IMG/VR virus record: IMGVR_UViG_3300006810_000396
Coordinates: 1 to 23,522 of that record
Length of the DNA: 23,522 nt
Strand: one strand, 5' to 3'
Origin: a virus
Position numbers and translations under genes: made by a program. The stretch's first letter is position 1. Every line of letters starts with the position of its first letter. Shown here piece by piece: positions 8,107 through 23,441 of the stretch. Under the pieces are notes generated by a model. The model saw only the letters and a list, made by a program, of their open reading frames with translations. It made no database searches and was not told the origin of the DNA.

Positions 8107-8943
8107 TCACGCAGCTTCATTGACATACTGTCGCATCATTCGGAACTGACTCATGCAATACTCAGCTGCTTTTTGTGCGGCAGATGATGCAGTCAGTAGG
8201 TAATTAGCATCAGACTCAATAGCCTTTTGCCATGACTGAATGTAACTAGCATGTTGCTCTATGTTGTATTGAACACCAAGCTCTGCACACAAGAAGACAC
8301 TGCCAAGCTCAGCAACAAGCTCTTCTTTTGCATAGTCCTCGCTGCCGAACATGCCTGTTAACTCACGATCAAGTCGTTTGCTGTGACCAGTTGAATGAAT
8401 ACACTCATGGTAAAAAGTGGATTGATGTGAATCGTCAGACTCAAACTGCCCAGGCATCGGCATCTTTATCTTGTCTGTTACAGGTGAATAACAAGGGTTG
8501 TGAGATGAATTAGAATCAACCTTAACTTGTAACGCATCAGCCATCTCATATGGACGCTCAAGCTTTGTCTGCCTTAATTGAATAGGCGGAACCTCAATGC
8601 CTATTTGCTCAAGATTAAAGAGGTTGTATAGCTTGGCAAACTTGTAGGTTTTTTCGTTGTCTTTGTCCTCCCCAGTGCCGTAGAAAATTGCAGGTGTAGC
8701 GGTCTGCCCCTTAACGTTGCCGCCAAGATCCTGCGCTTGCTTGTACGTTACCCAATACGGGTTTTTATAATCATTCTTCCACGCGGATATCATCGTGGTA
8801 ATTTGATTGGTCCCAGAATAAGGCCGCTTGCTAATCCAATTCTGATGAAGGCCAGACTGCGACTGCCAGGTCTTCCGCCAAGTTAACTCATCTTGCATGG
8901 CTTCAGACACCAAGGCGACAATGCGCTTGAATTTGTTAGACAT
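8107..8943 (-). CDS. ardC: ArdC-like antirestriction protein (ssDNA-binding domain plus zincin-type metallopeptidase)
   Basis: A 278-residue protein with the two-part ArdC layout. The N-terminal domain (about 1-120) starts with a K-R-I-V-x-L-V-S-E-A-M helix, W22 and W26, and the conserved P-Y-S-G-x-N segment (41-46). These are typical of the ArdC_N ssDNA-binding fold. The C-terminal half has the zincin motif H179-E-C-I-H183-S-T-G-H187 and a downstream E207-E-L-V-A-E-L-G glutamate-ligand helix. Plasmid ArdC protects incoming single-stranded DNA from restriction; phage homologues are widespread and presumed antirestriction. All expected active-site residues are present. The start has AAGGAGTG before the ATG, with CAATCAA directly abutting, and an operator-like promoter (8997-9025) lies upstream. 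Confidence 0.85.
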   Translation of the reverse strand: MSNKFKRIVALVSEAMQDELTWRKTWQSQSGLHQNWISKRPYSGTNQITTMISAWKNDYKNPYWVTYKQAQDLGGNVKGQTATPAIFYGTGEDKDNEKTYKFAKLYNLFNLEQIGIEVPPIQLRQTKLERPYEMADALQVKVDSNSSHNPCYSPVTDKIKMPMPGQFESDDSHQSTFYHECIHSTGHSKRLDRELTGMFGSEDYAKEELVAELGSVFLCAELGVQYNIEQHASYIQSWQKAIESDANYLLTASSAAQKAAEYCMSQFRMMRQYVNEAA

Positions 8944-8989
8944 AAAACACTCCTTGATTGAAGGAAGGCCAAGGGAAACCCCTCAACCT

Positions 8990-9025
8990 TTTGCGAAGTT
9001 TACCAACCTTTTAAAAGGTATGCAA
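8990..9025 (-). promoter_or_regulatory. Candidate promoter with 14-bp palindromic operator in its spacer
   Basis: On the minus strand TTGCAT (9020-9025), a 17-base spacer and TAAACT (8997-9002) make a plausible sigma-70 promoter about 50 bases before the ArdC-like gene. The perfect 14-bp palindrome ACCTTTTAAAAGGT (9006-9019) fills the spacer, with flanking AAGTTT/AAACTT arms widening the symmetry. AAAAGGTTG is also directly repeated. This is a classic repressor-site geometry, though an RNA hairpin is possible. Confidence 0.45.
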
Positions 9026-9028
9026 ACT

Positions 9029-9211
9029 TTACTTTGTTGAACAGCTGATACACATCCTGCGATCAGTCTTTTCGCAGTAGATGTCGTCGTCGAAATCAAT
9101 CTGCTTTCCGCAGACATCGCAATCGAATGAAGCGCAGATTGGACAACAATCACCCAGCGTGTTGACCTCGCCGCAGTTGACACACCTACCACCAACAGTC
9201 GTAGTAGACAT
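9029..9211 (-). CDS. Small double zinc-ribbon protein
   Basis: The ATG at 9211 is used (GGAGGTG six bases upstream; the GTG at 9217 overlaps the Shine-Dalgarno sequence). The 60-residue product contains four CxxC-type pairs: C-V-N-C near residue 10, C-C-P-I-C near 22, C-D-V-C near 31 and C-I-S-C near the end. A single Cys in the acidic loop adds one more. That is enough for two zinc sites. The Asp-rich loop between them is acidic. No named family was recognised. Roles as an RNA/protein-binding adaptor are typical but not shown. Its start overlaps the end of the MGLDQYA gene by 26 bases. Confidence 0.65.
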   Translation of the reverse strand: MSTTTVGGRCVNCGEVNTLGDCCPICASFDCDVCGKQIDFDDDIYCEKTDRRMCISCSTK

Positions 9212-9596
9212 AGTCACCTCCCGAGATCTCTTCCCTGGCCCATGCGCAAAACTTTAAGTCTTGTTCTTTATAGTCATCAGCAGATTCATCCTGAAATTGA
9301 TGACCATAAAAACATCCTCCTCCAGACGACGGCATTGTCCTAGTCTTTAATGCCATTTCAAGATCATCAATGATTCCTATATCCAAAAGCACAGGATTAC
9401 AATTAAAGTCAGCGTCGTGGATCATGGGAACTAACCTTCCACTAGCTACTCGCCCTTCAAAAAACTCTTGCAGCTTGGCATGCTTTCGCCATTGAAATTC
9501 CTCACCATGAACACCTTTAATTGCTAACCGACCATCCTCATCTTTCTCGACAGTCAACGCTTCTGGTGCACTAAATGCATATTGGTCAAGTCCCAT
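9186..9596 (-). CDS. MGLDQYA-family conserved phage protein, unknown function
   Basis: A 136-residue protein opening Met-Gly-Leu-Asp-Gln-Tyr-Ala. It has W36-R-K-H, a central F-N-C-N-P-V-L-L-D segment, Gly-Gly-Gly-Cys-Phe-Tyr-Gly, and the hallmark end Tyr-Val-Tyr-Tyr-Asp-Cys-Trp-Trp. This family is widespread in phages and a few bacteria. It is sometimes labelled 'phosphoglycerate kinase' in databases, which nothing in the sequence supports (no nucleotide-binding motif, far too short). The conserved WRKH and terminal aromatic cluster suggest a ligand-binding or enzyme-like pocket. AAGGAG lies before the ATG, and the start overlaps the previous gene by eleven bases. Confidence 0.75.
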   Translation of the reverse strand: MGLDQYAFSAPEALTVEKDEDGRLAIKGVHGEEFQWRKHAKLQEFFEGRVASGRLVPMIHDADFNCNPVLLDIGIIDDLEMALKTRTMPSSGGGCFYGHQFQDESADDYKEQDLKFCAWAREEISGGDYVYYDCWW

Positions 9597-9927
9597 GGGC
9601 TTCTCCTTTGCCTACTAACGTGATTGCTTCTTTCATGGTGCATCCCCAGAACGCTTCGGTAACTTGGTCAATTAACTCTCTACCTTTGGCGTCTAAATGC
9701 GTACGTTGGGTTTGCGATTGAATGTATAACCTAGCTAACTGGTTAAGTTTGTGGGGTGTCCAGCGTACATAACCAGCGCCAGTAACTAGATGCTCACACC
9801 AATGCATACGATGTGAATCCAGCGTGTCATCAATTGCCAGGTCCGAATCCCCACAGTGAATAATGTAATTGCTACCTACGTCATAACAATATTCATCATC
9901 TCCCCATAAGCTATTTGTATTAGACAT
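9586..9927 (-). CDS. Hypothetical early protein, acidic N-terminus
   Basis: A 113-residue protein. GAGAGG lies six bases before the ATG at 9927, and the gene abuts the stop of the small membrane gene without a gap. The first 50 residues are acidic and aromatic with several Cys and His (Y-C-Y-D, I-I-H-C, M-H-W-C-E-H), possibly a metal site. The second half is helical and basic (L-N-Q-L-A-R-L-Y-I-Q-S-Q) and ends Gly-Lys-Gly-Glu. No family was recognised. Confidence 0.6.
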   Translation of the reverse strand: MSNTNSLWGDDEYCYDVGSNYIIHCGDSDLAIDDTLDSHRMHWCEHLVTGAGYVRWTPHKLNQLARLYIQSQTQRTHLDAKGRELIDQVTEAFWGCTMKEAITLVGKGEAHGT

Positions 9928-10101
9928 TTATTGCCTCTCTTTTTTTAAGTCAACATCAAATATCAGTGCGGCAATCATTACCATTGCCAACGTAAACAAA
10001 CCAACGCCATACAAAACGTGTTGATTATCCATCGTCATCAGGCCATGAATACAAAACCCAATTCCTGTTACCAAATAAATCTCTGGAAGAATTTTAAACA
10101 T
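9928..10101 (-). CDS. 57-residue two-helix membrane protein
   Basis: AAGGA lies seven bases before the ATG at 10101. The product starts MFKILPEIYLVTGIGFCIHG, a first hydrophobic helix (about 8-23). A short loop Met-Asp-Asn-Gln-His follows, then a second hydrophobic helix (about 29-49) and a charged tail Asp-Leu-Lys-Lys-Glu-Arg-Gln. The next gene starts one base after its stop. Two helices, a short loop and a charged C-terminus resemble small class II holins. It lies in the early-type operon, however, far from the M15 lysin, so a membrane-targeting early protein is as likely. Confidence 0.6.
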   Translation of the reverse strand: MFKILPEIYLVTGIGFCIHGLMTMDNQHVLYGVGLFTLAMVMIAALIFDVDLKKERQ

Positions 10102-10132
10102 CACCAAATCCTTTAATAATTGCGAGGGTTGA

Positions 10133-10159
10133 ATGCCCCCTCACTTGTGCGGGGGGCAT
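10133..10159 (-). repeat. Intergenic hairpin ATGCCCCC/GGGGGCAT
   Basis: A perfect 8-bp inverted repeat (10133-10140 and 10152-10159) with an 11-base loop lies between two minus-strand genes. No U-run follows on either strand, so it is a weak terminator, mRNA-end stabiliser or binding site. Its ATGCCC arm recalls the 9-bp repeats at 3376-3483. Confidence 0.55.
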
Positions 10160-10169
10160 GAAACGCGAG

Positions 10170-10310
10170 CTAATCTGCCAATAACTCGCCAAGTGAAGAC
10201 AGTGGCGGCAGGTCGTCATCAGCTACGTCATCATCTTTTGTCGTCAATTCAGGCTGCACAACGTGCACACCGTCATCCTTGTTTAAACACCAGATAAATA
10301 CAGTCTCCAT
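10170..10310 (-). CDS. 46-residue acidic peptide
   Basis: ATG at 10310 with AAGGAG nine bases upstream, directly behind the UUCG terminator at 10331-10350. It reads METVFIWCLNKDDGVHVVQP, then an Asp-rich run (K-D-D-D-V-A-D-D-D-L) and a final P-P-L-S-S-L-G-E-L-L-A-D helix. It is highly acidic and probably partly disordered. A strongly acidic small early protein could be a DNA mimic or an inhibitor of a host nucleic-acid enzyme. That is inference from charge only. Confidence 0.5.
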   Translation of the reverse strand: METVFIWCLNKDDGVHVVQPELTTKDDDVADDDLPPLSSLGELLAD

Positions 10311-10330
10311 AACTCACTCCTTACGAAAGA

Positions 10331-10350
10331 AAAAAGGGGCCGAAGCCCCT
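10331..10350 (-). terminator. UUCG intrinsic terminator after the first early gene
   Basis: On the minus strand the 6-bp stem AGGGGC-TTCG-GCCCCT (10350-10335) runs into TTTTT. It is a textbook terminator placed six bases after the stop of the 113-residue gene. It would attenuate the rest of the leftward operon and give the first gene its own abundant mRNA. Confidence 0.85.
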
Positions 10351-10356
10351 GGTTAA

Positions 10357-10698
10357 TCAAGCCACCTTCTTCTTGGCGGCTGTTCGCTTGATGTGATCGT
10401 CCTGTGACTCGTCGACCTTCACCATGTCGTCGCCTCGCTCTGGCTCGTCGCCTTCGCTTTTGTTGCGAAGGTAATTCAGCGTCCTCTCGGCTCGCTCGAT
10501 CTGAGCGGCGTGGGCGTCCTCGACTGCCATCGACAGCATCTTGTTGCCTGTCTTTGTCTGCCGTTCCCAGACGACAACCTCTAATCGTCGGCCTTCAAAC
10601 ATGATCTCGCCCTTGAAGGTCGGAGCTTTTTCGTTGCGCATGAGGCCCTTGGTGTTGTGGAAGGCAAGCCCTTGGTTGTTTTCGATGTTAAGTGCCAT
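10357..10698 (-). CDS. First leftward early gene, small beta-rich protein of unknown function
   Basis: A 113-residue protein with GAGGAAAT upstream of the ATG and a CAATCAA element before that. Residues 1-60 alternate short strands: A-P-T-F-K-G-E-I-M-F, G-R-R-L-E-V-V-V-W-E-R, K-T-G-N-K-M-L-S-M-A-V. This fits a small OB- or barrel-type fold seen in phage ssDNA- or RNA-binding proteins. The C-terminal 45 residues are a charged helix and an acidic/basic tail ending A-K-K-K-V-A. Codon use is G+C-richer than in the rest of the operon and matches the adjoining gene-free island. It sits between that island and its own terminator, so it is probably highly expressed. Confidence 0.65.
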   Translation of the reverse strand: MALNIENNQGLAFHNTKGLMRNEKAPTFKGEIMFEGRRLEVVVWERQTKTGNKMLSMAVEDAHAAQIERAERTLNYLRNKSEGDEPERGDDMVKVDESQDDHIKRTAAKKKVA

Positions 10699-10724
10699 GG
10701 TTATTTCCTCAGTTGATTGATTTG

Positions 10725-11370
10725 TGTCGTTGCCGACAGGAGTAGAACTCCACAGGCTGTGCCTGGTTGCAAGGGGGTAGTTGAGCGTGAATCGCGGAGG
10801 GTCACGGTGACTCTGTGGACGCCAGACCGCTTGCGGGCTGAAGCGGGAACTGAGTCAGCGGGAAACCGTTATTCTCGCGGCCCTTGCGAACAGGTGCGGG
10901 CTGTGGATTCGTTACGGATGTCAGGCTACGACGAGTACAAATCTATCGACTGAGGAAATGACCGTTTATGGTACTTGGGCGTCGGAAACAGCCGAGGGTG
11001 CGTGGAACAACGCCAAGGGTCGAATGCCAACGGAAAACGGAGACCGAAAGCGTGATGATGGTTGAAGGCCGGCCCGCTCCTCCGTCGGATGGGAATGGCA
11101 GGCGAAGACAGGTGGCAAGCTGCCGAACTGCACTCTGCTCGCCCCGATTAGTCGCGGGAGCCGACGGCGGTGGTATTAGTCGCTGCGCTCCAGCTGGATA
11201 GGGATGCAGATGTAACCAACCGGCTCTGGGGATGCTTTGTCGGCTCTCTCACTCGGCTCTCTCAGCGGATCGGCTCCAGTCGGCTCGATGCCACATCGAA
11301 CACTACTACCCAGCAGACACAGGTGGGTCGAATTTACTCGGCGGGGGGGCGACGGCAGCGGCGGCCAAAT
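10725..11370 (+). ncRNA. Candidate large structured noncoding RNA
   Basis: About 650 bases with no credible gene. Hand counts of 39/60 and 37/60 G+C (10801-10860, 11041-11100) compare with 21/60 in a nearby gene (7441-7500). Hairpins seen: GGAGT-AGA-ACTCC (10739-10751), CAGGC-TGT-GCCTG (10753-10765), AGGGTCA-CGG-TGACTCT (10798-10814), a CAG..CCG-CTTG-CGG..CTG stem (10823-10840), AGCGG-GAAA-CCGTT with a GNRA loop (10857-10870), and 10880-10901. Others are a long-range stem CTTGGGCGT/ACGCCAAG (10974-10982 with 11010-11017) closing CGG..CCG, 11143-11158, TCGATG-CCA-CATCGA (11285-11299) and ACCCA/TGGGT (11308-11325). Several pairs are G-U on the plus strand and would be A-C on the minus, so plus is the likely sense. 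Length and phage setting recall GOLLD- or ROOL-class RNAs, but no known family was identified. Confidence 0.5.
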
Positions 11371-11557
11371 ATATAGTTCCCACCCAGATACAAAAAACGG
11401 CAAAACTGAAAAGGCTGGAACCCTTTAAGAATAACCTTTTGGCTGTATATTCCATTTTGTTCTAAGTACCACTATTGCGGTTATGTGGAATTAGTATAGG
11501 ATAGGGGGGGTAAGGCGGGCTTAATAAGCCTTATTTAAAATAAACGAGGAGAGTTTT
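11371..11557 (+). promoter_or_regulatory. A+T-rich leader before the late operon
   Basis: No gene seen. The base composition switches abruptly from the G+C-rich island to A+T-rich sequence at about 11367. Weak elements are a plus-strand TTGCGG (11475) and TAGGAT (11497) 16 bases apart, a G-run at about 11503-11510, and a hairpin GGCTT-AAT-AAGCC (11518-11530) followed by TTATTT, which could end the upstream RNA or sit in the late 5' UTR. On the minus strand TATATT (11368-11373) could be a -10 for the early operon, with no good -35. None is convincing alone. Confidence 0.35.
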
Positions 11558-11725
11558 ATGCCAGTACGAAGATCAGGAAGGACAGTTCGGGGAAGCGGGA
11601 CAAGAACAGGATTGCGGGGATCTAGGCGACCGGCGGGTTACAACCCACCTAGACCGCCAGACCGGCAACCGCCAAGGACGCCACAAGAGGCGGTGCCTAA
11701 GCCCAGGAGAAAGAAAAAGAAATGA
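11558..11725 (+). CDS. 55-residue highly basic Arg/Gly/Pro-rich protein
   Basis: GAGGAGAG precedes the ATG by seven bases. The product has about ten Arg/Gly alternations in the first half (MPVRRSGRTVRGSGTRTGLR), a Pro-rich centre and an RRKKKK end. Low complexity and the extreme positive charge indicate a disordered nucleic-acid-binding peptide, like protamine-type or RGG peptides packed with DNA or bound to RNA. Its TGA overlaps the ATG of the next gene (ATGA). It is the first late gene, right behind the structured-RNA candidate. Function is inferred from composition only. Confidence 0.6.
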   Translation: MPVRRSGRTVRGSGTRTGLRGSRRPAGYNPPRPPDRQPPRTPQEAVPKPRRKKKK

Positions 11726-11919
11726 ACGAGAAGCCAGATCCCAGAGATAGCGTTGAATATCGCTCTATTGATTACTATTCAATGTGCGAGAAGTCTAAGA
11801 AGCAGGTTAAGTCTATGCAGGATGCGGGTTATTCTACCATGCATGATGCCAAGGCTACACCAGAAGAGACTGAATCCAAGGGTATGGGTGGATATTCTAT
11901 TATTATGATGGGCAAGTAA
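11722..11919 (+). CDS. Small hypothetical late protein
   Basis: A 65-residue protein whose ATG overlaps the previous stop and whose TAA overlaps the next ATG. AGGAG lies about twelve bases before the start, inside the basic gene. The first half is acidic and tyrosine-rich (V-E-Y-R-S-I-D-Y-Y-S), the middle a lysine/serine helix, the end G-M-G-G-Y-S-I-I-M-M-G-K. No family was recognised. Confidence 0.6.
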   Translation: MNEKPDPRDSVEYRSIDYYSMCEKSKKQVKSMQDAGYSTMHDAKATPEETESKGMGGYSIIMMGK

Positions 11920-12065
11920 TGCCTGTTGAAGACATTGATATCCACGACCAAATAGAAAGGCTGACCAACAGCCTTTTTTTGCTTTCGGATAGCTTATCTG
12001 CTATTGAGGAATCTTTAACCGAGCTTATTGAGCTAGCAAAGGACAGTAAAGAAGACGATGGATAA
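11919..12065 (+). CDS. 48-residue acidic coiled-coil peptide
   Basis: The frame from the ATG at 11919 (TAATG overlap with the previous stop) to TAA at 12065 reads MPVEDIDIHDQIERLTNSLF and then a Leu/Ser/Glu heptad-like helix ending K-D-S-K-E-D-D-G. Regular Leu/Ile spacing from residue 12 to 39 suggests one amphipathic or coiled-coil helix. It overlaps the start of the small terminase by eight bases, so it may be coupled to it. Function unknown. Confidence 0.55.
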   Translation: MPVEDIDIHDQIERLTNSLFLLSDSLSAIEESLTELIELAKDSKEDDG

Positions 12066-16724: not shown

Positions 16725-17429
16725 TTGAACAAACTAGAAAGTATTTACAAATTAAAAGTAAAAGAATCTCTCGACACCGCAGCAAAGTATCATAGGCTTT
16801 TAACCAAACGAAAAGAAAAGGTTATAGTTATGTACTCTGGCGGCATGGATAGCGTGTCGTTAGCATGGAGCTTGCTAGAGCATACACAGCATAACGTACA
16901 CATACACTCAATACACCTAGATAATTCTGAAGGTAGATTTAAAGCAGAAGCAAATGCTATTCATAAAAGCATAAACTGGCTTAAAGATAACCAACGAGAG
17001 TTTGAGTTTTCATCTTGCTTGTATTCTTACAAGGCTAAATATCCTGGGGGAAGGGACATGTCATTAGCTTTGTTTCAGGCTGGAAGGGTTATATCTACAA
17101 TGACTGAGCCTGTATGCGCTATATTTACCGGCGATTACAACATGAGCAAGGAAGAAAGCGCAGAAGCATATGGCGTCATGAGTGCTTTGTTTATGAATAA
17201 ACAATCAAAGCCGGTTTGGGCTGCGCCATTTGACTATATGAGCAAAACCCCTCTTGAAAGAAGCCTTGGGGTTTATTACGCTATGCCAGAGCAGTTGCAA
17301 AAAATGTATTGGTCGTGTAGAAGACCAAGTGAAACGCCAGACGGATTTTTATCCTGTGGCGAGTGCCATGCTTGTAGGCGGCAACATGCAATGAAGCAGC
17401 ACATTAAAAGGTTTGACAATGAAAGTTAA
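16725..17429 (+). CDS. queC: QueC-like PP-loop ATPase (7-cyano-7-deazaguanine synthase family)
   Basis: A 234-residue protein. The TTG at 16725 is the start: AGGAG lies eight bases upstream, a CAATCAA element precedes it, and no ATG is available before the catalytic loop. The PP-loop S38-G-G-M-D-S43 follows the first strand. The C-terminal half has the QueC zinc cluster: W-S-C198, then C211-G-E-C214-H-A-C217-R-R. QueC makes preQ0 from carboxydeazaguanine, ATP and ammonia. In phages preQ0 derivatives are inserted into DNA to escape restriction, but no QueD, QueE, FolE or DpdA gene is in this window. QatC-like and other PP-loop enzymes share this outline, so the substrate is open. It sits between portal and scaffold genes. 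Confidence 0.78.
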   Translation: MNKLESIYKLKVKESLDTAAKYHRLLTKRKEKVIVMYSGGMDSVSLAWSLLEHTQHNVHIHSIHLDNSEGRFKAEANAIHKSINWLKDNQREFEFSSCLYSYKAKYPGGRDMSLALFQAGRVISTMTEPVCAIFTGDYNMSKEESAEAYGVMSALFMNKQSKPVWAAPFDYMSKTPLERSLGVYYAMPEQLQKMYWSCRRPSETPDGFLSCGECHACRRQHAMKQHIKRFDNES

Positions 17430-20474: not shown

Positions 20475-23441
20475 ATGGCAACCACAATTAAGCTTAAAAA
20501 TGGATCGGGTGCGCCCTCAGCTAGTGATTTAGTCCAAGGCGAACCAGCAATTGATTTAACAAACAAAAGACTTTATACCGAAAATGGCAGTGGTGCTGTT
20601 ATCGAAGTGGGGTCAAACCCAAGCAGCCTTTCTATTGCGGGGACTGCAATTACCGCTACAGCGGCAGAGTTAAACATTCTTGATGGCGTAACCTCTACTG
20701 CGGCGGAGTTAAATATCCTTGACGGAGTTACTGCTACTGCCGCAGAACTTAATATTATGGATGGCGTTACATCCACTACAGCCGAACTTAATATTTTAGA
20801 TGGGGTTACCAGCACAGCGGCTGAGCTTAATATTTTGGACGGAGTGACTTCTACTGCGGCTGAGCTAAATATACTAGATGGTGTTACTTCGACAACGGCA
20901 GAATTAAACATTCTTGACGGGGTTACAAGTACAACCGCAGAGTTAAATATACTAGATGGAGTAACAAGTACAGCCGCAGAATTAAATGTGCTTGATGGCG
21001 TTACAGCTTTTGTTGACGAAGATGATATGTCTAGCGACTCAGCTACATCTATTCCCAGCCAGCAATCAGTAAAGGCATATGTTGATTCTGTAGCAACAGC
21101 ATCAGACTTAGACTTTCAAGCTGACAGCGGTGGTGCTTTAAATATTGATCTTGACTCAGAAACCATGACGTTTACTGGCGGCACTGGTATTGATACGTCG
21201 GGTTCTGGTAATGCCGTTACGTTTGCGATTGATTCGACGGTAGCAACGCTTACTGGAAGTCAATCTCTTACAAACAAAACACTAACATCGCCTGTTTTAA
21301 ACACGGGCGTTTCTGGCACTGCGGTTCTTGATGAAGATGATATGTCTTCAGACTCTGCAACTCAACTCGCTACCCAACAATCTATTAAGGCATATGTCGA
21401 TTCTCAGGTTGCATCTGCGGATACACTTGCCGAGCTTACAGATACAAATGTTACAAGCCCTGCTGATGCCGCCGTTTTGTTTTATGACACAGGCACATCA
21501 AAGTGGATTGACAATGTAGTCTCTGGCGACGTTACGATTGCCGATACTGGCGTAGCGGCTATTGGCTCTGGGGTTATTGTTAATGATGATGTTAACGCCA
21601 GCGCTGCTATAAGCGTTTCTAAGACCGCTTTGACGGCAGGTACGGGTATTACCCTTAGTACGGACACTTTGTCTGTGGATGCCTCTCAGACGCAAATAAC
21701 GGCAGTTGGAACAATTGGCACAGGAACCTGGCAAGGCTCGGTTATCTCTGACACCTATGTTGCCAATGACTTAACCATATCTGGCGGCACAATCGAAAAC
21801 ACAATTATTGGTGCATCTACAGCCGCCGCAGGCACGTTTACTACGTTTACCTCCACAGGCATCGACGATAACGCCACAAGCACTGCAATTACGATTGACT
21901 CAAGTCAGAACGTGGATGTAGATGGCAACCTCACTGCTGGTGATGGCACTGATATCAGTATGTCGGGAACACCCACTGGTCAGATCAGGATTGATGGCAA
22001 TGGCTACGATGGCGCAATCGCATTAGACGCCACAGGTATGCACATTTACCACAACAGTGCTTCACGCTCTTTGATCTTCGGCACAAATGAAATAGGGCGT
22101 ATGCTTATCGACTCCAGCGGCAGGGTTGGCATTGGCGCTACATCCCCTTCAACTTATAGCAATGCTTCAGAGCTTGTTGTGGATACTGGTGTTTCTGGAG
22201 GTATTACGGTAGTCAGTGATTCTACGTCTGGCGGTTATGGTGCTTTGTACTTCGCCGATGGCACAACAGGTGACGAGCAGTACAGGGGGTTCATTCAATA
22301 CAACCATAACAACAGCGGAACCGATGAAATGCTTATTGGTACTGCTGGCGCGACACGCATGGCGATAGATAGCTCTGGCGGTGTTATTTTCAAAGGGTCT
22401 TTAGCAAGTCACCAAACCAATGCGGGCGTTGTTGAGTACAGCAGTAACCTAGTCTCAATACACAGTTATGGCGCAACATCTGGTACAGGATCAATTCGCT
22501 TTTTAACTGGCGGTGGTGGTGGGAGCGGTACGTCAGAAGCCATGCGTATTACTGCTGGTGGTTCCGTACTAGCCGGCGACTCGTCTACCAGCGGCGCTAC
22601 GGCTTACGCGATCAATTACACCAACGATGACCTCTTAAACATATTTGGATCAGTGAGATCATCGGGCTATACCACACTGACTTATGGTGCAAAGCCATCA
22701 ACAACTACTTCTCACGGATATGTTTCAGCGGCGGGTAATTTTTCCTTTGCAAAATCGGCCCTAGAAATTGGTAATTGCAGTCTAGAATTTAAGACAAGCG
22801 CGTCTGGTACGGATACCATTGGCGATGCAGTGACCATGACGAATAGGTTTTCTATCGACTCTAGCGGCAACTTGCTGGTTGGAACAACTACCTCTGGAAG
22901 TTCACGCTTAGTTGCTAGTAAGAGTGTTGCAACAGGCGTTTATACCGCAAAGCTGATAGACACAAATACGAATACCGCAAACTGTTTTGGCCTTAATATT
23001 GATTATTCGGCGGCGGCTCCTAACGGCAGTGGTAATCAGTTTATTTATTGTGAAGATAGCTCCGCATTGAGGATGTCGGTTACCTCAAATGGAGGAATCA
23101 GTAATTATCAAGCCTTTGATTCAAATTTATCAGATCAACGCGCCAAAAAAGACATTGTTGAATCTGGTGATTACCTTGAAAAACTTTGCAGTATTCCGGT
23201 TAAAAACTTTAGATACAATGAGGACGAGGAAAACAGCAAACTTCACTTAGGTGTTATTGCACAGGACGTTGAAGCTGTTGCGCCAGAGTTTGTAAGCAAA
23301 GCATCTTGGGAATACAACGAGCAACAGATGGACTCCGTGTTTAACACTGATCTTATGTTCGCCATGATGAAATCTATTCAAGAACTTTCAACACAAGTAA
23401 ACGAACTCAAAGCCGAAGTAGCGGCACTTAAAGGAGCTTAA
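20475..23441 (+). CDS. Tail fibre with tandem repeats and S74 auto-cleaving chaperone
   Basis: A 988-residue protein. The short N-terminal anchor (T-I-K-L-K-N-G-S-G) is followed by nine 13-residue repeats (residues 61-177). Two D-E-D-D-M-S-S-D-S-A-T...A-Y-V-D-S modules follow at about 179-207 and 284-312, with one L-T-N-K-T-L-T-S-P-V-L between them. A long Gly/Ser/Thr-rich beta-structured shaft then carries I-D-S-S-G repeats. The last ~103 residues are an S74 intramolecular chaperone: S886-D-Q-R-A-K891-K-D-I (Ser/Lys dyad), then H-L-G-V-I-A-Q-D-V-E-A-V-A-P-E and a C-terminal coiled coil. Homologues trimerise and cut just before the Ser. It binds the host surface. The ribosome site is weak (TTGGAGTAGTTC). 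Confidence 0.9.
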   Translation: MATTIKLKNGSGAPSASDLVQGEPAIDLTNKRLYTENGSGAVIEVGSNPSSLSIAGTAITATAAELNILDGVTSTAAELNILDGVTATAAELNIMDGVTSTTAELNILDGVTSTAAELNILDGVTSTAAELNILDGVTSTTAELNILDGVTSTTAELNILDGVTSTAAELNVLDGVTAFVDEDDMSSDSATSIPSQQSVKAYVDSVATASDLDFQADSGGALNIDLDSETMTFTGGTGIDTSGSGNAVTFAIDSTVATLTGSQSLTNKTLTSPVLNTGVSGTAVLDEDDMSSDSATQLATQQSIKAYVDSQVASADTLAELTDTNVTSPADAAVLFYDTGTSKWIDNVVSGDVTIADTGVAAIGSGVIVNDDVNASAAISVSKTALTAGTGITLSTDTLSVDASQTQITAVGTIGTGTWQGSVISDTYVANDLTISGGTIENTIIGASTAAAGTFTTFTSTGIDDNATSTAITIDSSQNVDVDGNLTAGDGTDISMSGTPTGQIRIDGNGYDGAIALDATGMHIYHNSASRSLIFGTNEIGRMLIDSSGRVGIGATSPSTYSNASELVVDTGVSGGITVVSDSTSGGYGALYFADGTTGDEQYRGFIQYNHNNSGTDEMLIGTAGATRMAIDSSGGVIFKGSLASHQTNAGVVEYSSNLVSIHSYGATSGTGSIRFLTGGGGGSGTSEAMRITAGGSVLAGDSSTSGATAYAINYTNDDLLNIFGSVRSSGYTTLTYGAKPSTTTSHGYVSAAGNFSFAKSALEIGNCSLEFKTSASGTDTIGDAVTMTNRFSIDSSGNLLVGTTTSGSSRLVASKSVATGVYTAKLIDTNTNTANCFGLNIDYSAAAPNGSGNQFIYCEDSSALRMSVTSNGGISNYQAFDSNLSDQRAKKDIVESGDYLEKLCSIPVKNFRYNEDEENSKLHLGVIAQDVEAVAPEFVSKASWEYNEQQMDSVFNTDLMFAMMKSIQELSTQVNELKAEVAALKGA
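20655..21005 (+). repeat. Nine tandem 39-bp (13-residue) repeats in the fibre gene
   Basis: Nine in-frame units of the pattern [SA]-T-[AT]-A-E-L-N-[IV]-[LM]-D-G-V-T without gaps. Protein identity is near complete, but the DNA of the units differs at many synonymous positions (for example Leu as tta, ctt or cta and Gly as ggc, gga, ggg or ggt). This is an old or codon-diversified repeat, not a recent expansion. Confidence 0.9.

Follow-up and report, generated by a model that had tools for sequence, protein, structure and literature searches.

The window, by which we mean the whole 23.5-kb stretch of DNA analysed here, is an IMG/VR virus record that codes for a terminase, an SU10/P22-like portal protein and a Phage_capsid_2 capsid protein. 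The early genes, which run leftward, diverge from the rightward late genes at an island spanning positions 10725-11370, where the GC skew flips sign, and a single block of rightward late genes lies directly downstream of the island in all relatives. The features of the locus are listed in Table 1. ARAGORN found no tRNA or tmRNA genes in the window. Neither the island nor the SSB-like gene on its left matched annotated phage records, and the best terminase matches in those records were at ~36-44% over part of the length only. The carriers of the locus are a family of uncultured, apparently marine phages. Closer terminase relatives (L079-L085, 64-82%) sit in MAG bins and are most likely stray phage contigs that were mis-binned; given that the MAGs belong to unrelated phyla, no host can be named. 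Motif 1 (see below) is absent from all bin relatives checked. A search of six contigs for a phage-type RNA polymerase (PF00940), which might have used motif 2 (Table 1) as its promoter, gave no match, nor did the positive control of the same search.

Several other genes of these phages deserve mention. The protein encoded at 8107-8943 combines an ArdC N-terminal domain with a zincin-like peptidase and is of the antirestriction type. The product of 16725-17429 contains an SGGMDS PP-loop motif and by eye resembles an ATP pyrophosphatase, possibly a nucleotide-modification enzyme; it is present in some relatives and was not found in others. A tail-fibre-like ORF at 20475-23441 contains about ten near-identical TAAELNILDGVTS repeats, and by eye its C-terminus resembles the S74 self-cleaving chaperone. 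One 35.4-kb contig of the group (L051+L052, G009) has a 127-bp direct terminal repeat and is probably a complete genome.

The island has stop codons in all three plus-strand frames and its small ORFs match no PHROG family. Thus it is gene-free, as a sequence-only reading of the window had proposed, and we rejected a coding explanation. The same reading had called the genome gap-free elsewhere, which is loose: the stretch 9928-10356 contains little beyond small conserved minus-strand frames and the terminator of the SSB-like gene. The high G+C content noted for the island is real with respect to the late genes on its right (0.56-0.62 versus 0.42-0.46) and to the sequence left of 10400 (~0.36-0.49), but the SSB gene side, which belongs to the same structure, is similarly rich (0.55-0.58).

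Table 1. Sequence features at the early/late divergence point of the window.
Feature	Position	Strand	Description and evidence
Rod 5' arm	10487-10809	+	Antisense of SSB codons 1-~70 (10487-10698) and SSB 5' leader (10699-10809); RNAalifold and pair counts (14 genomes), self-inverted match
Apical loop region	10810-10855	+	Length varies among relatives from ~15 to >100 nt; alignments
Rod 3' arm	10856-11126	+	Non-coding mimic of SSB leader and 5' coding region; A-to-G and C-to-T departures correspond to plus-strand G-U
Apical domain, most conserved	10742-10915	+	Covariance model R1
SSB-like gene, 113 aa	10357-10698	-	Its coding strand faces the 5' arm; matches phrog_18154 (single strand DNA binding protein) at E 4.9e-6; conserved in relatives
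Intrinsic-terminator-like hairpin of SSB gene	10335-10350	-	Kept in relatives
Outer part, poorly conserved	11127-11367	+	Can lengthen the rod in the window to ~10338-10372; alignment gives no support
G-run, then motif 1 GTTCCCACCCAGATACAAAAAA (11376-11397)	11343-11397	+	One copy in each genome; bounds the island on its right side in all relatives
Motif 2 TATAGGATAGGG(A/G)GGG and short hairpin with U-rich tail	11495-11540	+	Just 5' of first late gene; single copy

Architecture of the rod-like hairpin

Folded by itself, the island is no more stable than shuffled sequence (z = -1.0 with 20 shuffles, -1.08 with 60). The earlier description of it as densely folded does not hold, and the shuffling test proposed with that description would have refuted a structure confined to the island. 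Used as a query against its own contig, the island matched not only itself but also, in inverted orientation, the adjacent minus-strand gene. Local alignment of island positions 10866-11356 with the antisense sequence 10797-10339 scores 564, against 247 for the highest-scoring of 100 dinucleotide shuffles. Addition of the SSB antisense sequence (10357-10698) brings the native folding energy of the plus strand far below that of shuffles, with z values of -11.9 for the window and -11.7, -12.6 and -8.6 for the relatives L008, L010 and L043; the corresponding minus-strand values are -7.7, -1.5, -7.0 and -4.7. In a scan of 33 windows of 700 nt along the contig, the plus strand of 10501-11200 is 121 kcal/mol below its shuffles and the next best window 36 kcal/mol below.

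The RNAalifold consensus of the relatives is a single rod, in which 10487-10491, 10550-10698 and 10699-10809 are paired with 11122-11126, 10968-11109 and 10856-10963, respectively. By these predictions the true object is one rod-like hairpin of 10487-10809 paired with 10856-11126, with a core of ~640 nt (10487-11126); the RNA-like hairpin reaches up to ~1000 bases in the phage family, and the structured region around the core extends to motif 1 at 11376. A further extension of the rod by pairing of 10338-10486 with 11127-11367 is energetically favourable in the window; we rejected it because the alignment does not support it. The small local stems that had been proposed within the island are not kept in the consensus of relatives. 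Instead of a GNRA-capped hairpin at 10857-10870, the comparative structure pairs 10856-10878 with 10785-10809, and the supposed stem between 10974-10982 and 11010-11017 gives way to pairing of 10968-10998 with 10669-10698 and of 11002-11012 with 10650-10660.

Positions 10487-10698 are the opposite strand of the SSB gene, and the 5' arm is complementary to the start region of the SSB mRNA, including the ribosome-binding site and start codon. An ATG at 10968 in the 3' arm mirrors the SSB start codon. The internal loops of the rod are at fixed places in all lineages, and the intergenic apical domain is conserved as well as coding sequence. The covariance model R1 matches all strong rod phages as well as the held-out sequences L036, L049 (G006), L078 and L017, and gave no match in phages with other island types. 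L026, L032 and G006 have kept the apical domain, but their distal arms are short or weak and show little or no fold excess; the apical part is thus seemingly more constrained. Near the right-hand boundary of the island, the G-run and UUCCCACC (11343-11397 region) are able to form a small hairpin. Motif 2 and its hairpin look like a promoter, terminator or attenuator.

None of 4227 Rfam models matched at gathering score in the window or in 10 relatives, GOLLD, ROOL and OLE included; at E<=10, a search of 10690-11560 returned a chance P10 match alone.

Conservation of pairing among relatives

A protein search with the SSB-like sequence found 13 IMG/VR loci, and exact copies of motif 1 GTTCCCACCCAGATACAAAAAA were found in 35 viral contig stretches, many of them overlapping. 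Fourteen sequences with clear arms, duplicates removed, were used for alignment A2. Across 190 consensus pairs in these 14 sequences, 92.6% of all cells are paired. Changes on both sides of a pair are seen in 72 of the 190 pairs (201 cells), and 0/500 shuffles reach any of these measures. Because these shuffles take no account of relatedness, and because the structure comes from the same 14 sequences, weight must also be given to the cross-pairing test below and to slid controls, in which moving the partner by 1-3 columns lowers the paired share to 38-43%. The 3' arms of relatives carry frame-shifting indels. What the homologues conserve is therefore compensatory base changes and not reading frames, and we regard conserved plus-strand pairing as practically certain.

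The 3' arm follows the version of the gene that its own genome carries. When the antisense start region of SSB was paired in silico with 3' arms, energies were -49 to -108 kcal/mol within a genome and -0.2 to -21 kcal/mol between diverged lineages (the group of the window, L007, L009, L010 and L042; L047; L008; L043). Strong pairing is thus confined to the genome's own gene, even where the genes are 40-65% identical. In L047, the clearest example, the apical domain shares 95-97% identity with the L042 domain, the SSB-like protein has only 39-54% identity to the others, and the 3' arm is matched to the gene of the same genome. A held-out locus with a gene of this type, L036, behaves likewise.

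Departures from Watson-Crick pairing are biased towards one strand. Mismatches that are G-U on the plus strand outnumber those that are A-C by 288:90 (3.2:1), where base composition predicts 1.57, or ~1.6:1; the genomes being related, these totals are not independent counts. In strand-symmetric self-alignments, read from gene sense to island, A>G changes exceed G>A by 184 to 49 and C>T changes exceed T>C by 104 to 41. L008 alone contributes 52 G-U and 10 A-C; L009 shows no significant bias. The held-out L036, which has an L047-type gene, shows 27 G-U versus 3 A-C and folds to -314 kcal/mol on the plus strand versus -217 kcal/mol on the minus strand. The fold energies and the G-U bias across genomes agree with the earlier assignment of the plus strand as the structured one. 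Strand-biased deamination might produce a similar G-U excess, but the 3' arm contains more A (0.25) than T (0.17), opposite to the trace expected of it.

The longest perfect Watson-Crick runs in 15 genomes are 8-12 nt, growing to 10-35 nt once G-U pairs are counted. As no perfect run exceeds 12 nt, nothing points to recent copying between the arms; gene conversion in the recent past was rejected on the same absence of identity tracts. The two arms are only ~60% identical as DNA, yet through G-U pairing the RNA can form a near-continuous helix.

Exchange of gene and island

A near-identical phage provides a natural comparison. G004 is 93% identical to the window over 8126-9937, mixed over 11325-11921 and 96% identical from 11918 onwards (flanks 93-98%). 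Across 9938-~11324 there is no nucleotide match; G004 has another gene and another island there. Alternative structured islands of types b1 and b2 lie next to different small genes in phages that are near-identical or closely related, namely L024/L061 (G004), L022, L021, L044, L018, L046, L048 and L028. Their plus-strand z values are -3 to -8, and their minus strands are often equally low. For type b1, 38 of 195 pairs covary (0/500 shuffles; slid controls 35-43%). The b1 and b2 islands show no pairing with their own adjacent gene and no R1 match; a function shared by all islands can thus not lie in hiding an antisense arm. Judged by these comparisons, near-identical phages seem to exchange gene and island together, as a cassette bounded by motif 1.

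All island types end at motif 1 GTTCCCACCCAGATAC; motif 2 (TATAGGATAGGGAGGG) and a short hairpin then lie between it and the first late gene. Sequences of the motif 1 set were chosen for an exact match, which in part accounts for the invariance of the motif among them; in L014, which was found by protein search, motif 1 has one change. The island-adjacent genes of the window, L024, L010, L022, L044 and L047 have wholly different N-terminal parts and a common basic C-terminal tail (for example KRRKVA, KRQRKIA, KTRKIA), suggesting swapping of the N-terminal domain.

Possible roles of the predicted RNA

The comparative data point to a new family of large plus-strand phage RNAs that overlap SSB in antisense. 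The suggestion that the island encodes a large structured phage RNA thus stands as to kind, with compensatory changes and no conserved frame, but not as to extent and architecture: the predicted RNA is one long rod, and its 5' half is antisense to the SSB-like gene. We envisage a discrete plus-strand RNA whose transcription would run rightward across the SSB gene and which would fold on itself meanwhile. Self-folding would conceal the antisense arm from the SSB mRNA, allowing a long RNA and an opposite-strand gene to coexist, and the conserved apical domain would be the part that binds something. With G-U pairs and arms only ~60% identical, the genome would avoid the instability that a long palindrome brings, and the G-U pairs may also protect the RNA from RNase III. 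The folded RNA might serve as a scaffold, a decoy or a regulator. Given the analogy to other giant phage RNAs, a trans-acting structural RNA made during infection is the favoured role; most likely it would act on its own, as a structural or regulatory RNA that by pairing with itself holds the antisense part off the SSB mRNA. We put the probability of this whole chain, a discrete, self-folding, trans-acting RNA that hides its SSB antisense arm, at roughly 0.6. Two observations count against a discrete RNA: a sigma-70-like plus-strand promoter could not be found immediately 5' of the rod, and there are relatives in which only ~40 nt lie between the SSB terminator and the start of the next gene. 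A more far-reaching idea, which we offer tentatively, is that the antisense strand of a protein gene serves as one arm of a giant self-complementary RNA, that the partner arm co-evolves with the gene version, and that both travel as a cassette and act together in infection, for instance to control replication or to escape a host defence that recognises SSB or dsRNA.

Could the rod instead act in cis? In all relatives the single block of rightward late genes follows it directly, and the window has no plus-strand terminator between the two, as would suit a leader or antitermination element at the 5' end of the late transcript that, like put RNAs, works on RNA polymerase or on the expression of late genes rather than as a free RNA. 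We consider this unlikely, as the promoter-like motif 2 (TATAGGATAGGGAGGG), conserved just 5' of the late genes, suggests that the late mRNA starts after the rod, and the rod far exceeds known cis-acting antitermination RNAs in size.

Two further explanations strike us as rather improbable, to a similar degree. The first places the function in DNA, as a replication origin or a hairpin of plus-strand ssDNA, in which the pairing would be identical with G-T in place of G-U; our data do not distinguish such ssDNA from RNA. The location is suggestive, being a single-copy site at the early/late divergence and GC skew sign change, adjoining an SSB-like gene, with the AT-rich, A-tract-containing motif 1 occurring once per genome. 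There are, however, no iterons or dense short repeats. We found one short direct repeat only, and rejected a simple repeat-based origin on that ground. A DNA hairpin of this size usually needs an arm identity above ~60%, and many internal loops and G-U pairs in long rods are typical of RNA. The second is an antisense repressor, a plus-strand RNA that pairs with the SSB mRNA to turn the early gene off, the hairpin switching between a free and a self-paired state. The 5' arm has, by definition, full complementarity to the translation start of that mRNA, ribosome-binding site and start codon included; but the self-pairing kept in evolution would compete with pairing to the mRNA, and there are phages with alternative islands that lack complementarity to the gene.

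We strongly disfavour a decaying inverted SSB duplication without function, with arms kept alike by template switching or gene conversion, although the 3' arm is recognisable as a copy of the SSB gene with leader and mirrored start codon: 15 genomes contain no long identity tract (longest perfect run, 12 nt), the internal loops are fixed in all lineages, the bias runs to G-U and not to identity, and conservation of the intergenic apical domain equals that of coding sequence. Correction of quasi-palindromes is itself a known mutation process, described in the abstract of PMC3820800.

Among known large RNAs, GOLLD, ROOL and OLE are structured non-coding RNAs of ~600-1000 nt, the first two found in phages and prophages (PMC12286853). 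The rod resembles them in being a large, structured, non-coding RNA in a phage setting with deep covariation support, and by its predicted properties is of this general kind; judged by model match, it lies outside all three families. It differs further in that GOLLD and ROOL are associated with tRNA genes, which the window lacks, in being a single rod rather than a multi-branched pseudoknotted cage, and in having one half that runs antisense to a protein gene and follows the changes of that gene. The nearest conceptual neighbours that we found are in the excerpted text of PMC7567579: phage ICP1 makes an abundant ~800-nt non-coding RNA, and PLE a transcript between inverted repeats with antisense matches to gene leaders. 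The likeness (a long phage non-coding RNA; inverted repeats and antisense matches to leaders in the PLE transcript) is conceptual only, as those RNAs were found by expression and that excerpt does not describe a covarying rod that spans a gene. In the open-access subset of the literature we found nothing comparable to a gene-overlapping giant phage RNA, which given this scope is weak evidence of novelty.

The rod, if transcribed, would share with the cis-encoded antisense RNAs of phages and plasmids its position opposite a coding gene and its complementarity to the start region of that gene. Known cis-encoded antisense RNAs are mostly short, and the rod differs from them in having a dedicated 3' arm that would sequester the antisense part over ~190 bp. 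Hepatitis delta virus and obelisks have rod-shaped RNAs of ~1 kb with a protein gene along one side, which the rod resembles in both respects. It differs in being a DNA phage locus whose gene is on the strand opposite to the folded RNA, with no evidence of circularity, a ribozyme or RNA replication.

Few large structured phage RNAs are known, and the rod adds an evolutionary signature to them: a co-evolving gene, covariation over ~190 pairs and swappable alleles in near-identical phages. Owing to this combination, its function should be testable by breaking and restoring the pairing. G-U pairs would let the genome encode a near-continuous RNA helix without a DNA palindrome. Finally, ORF-centred annotation conceals half of this predicted structured RNA beneath a gene on the opposite strand.
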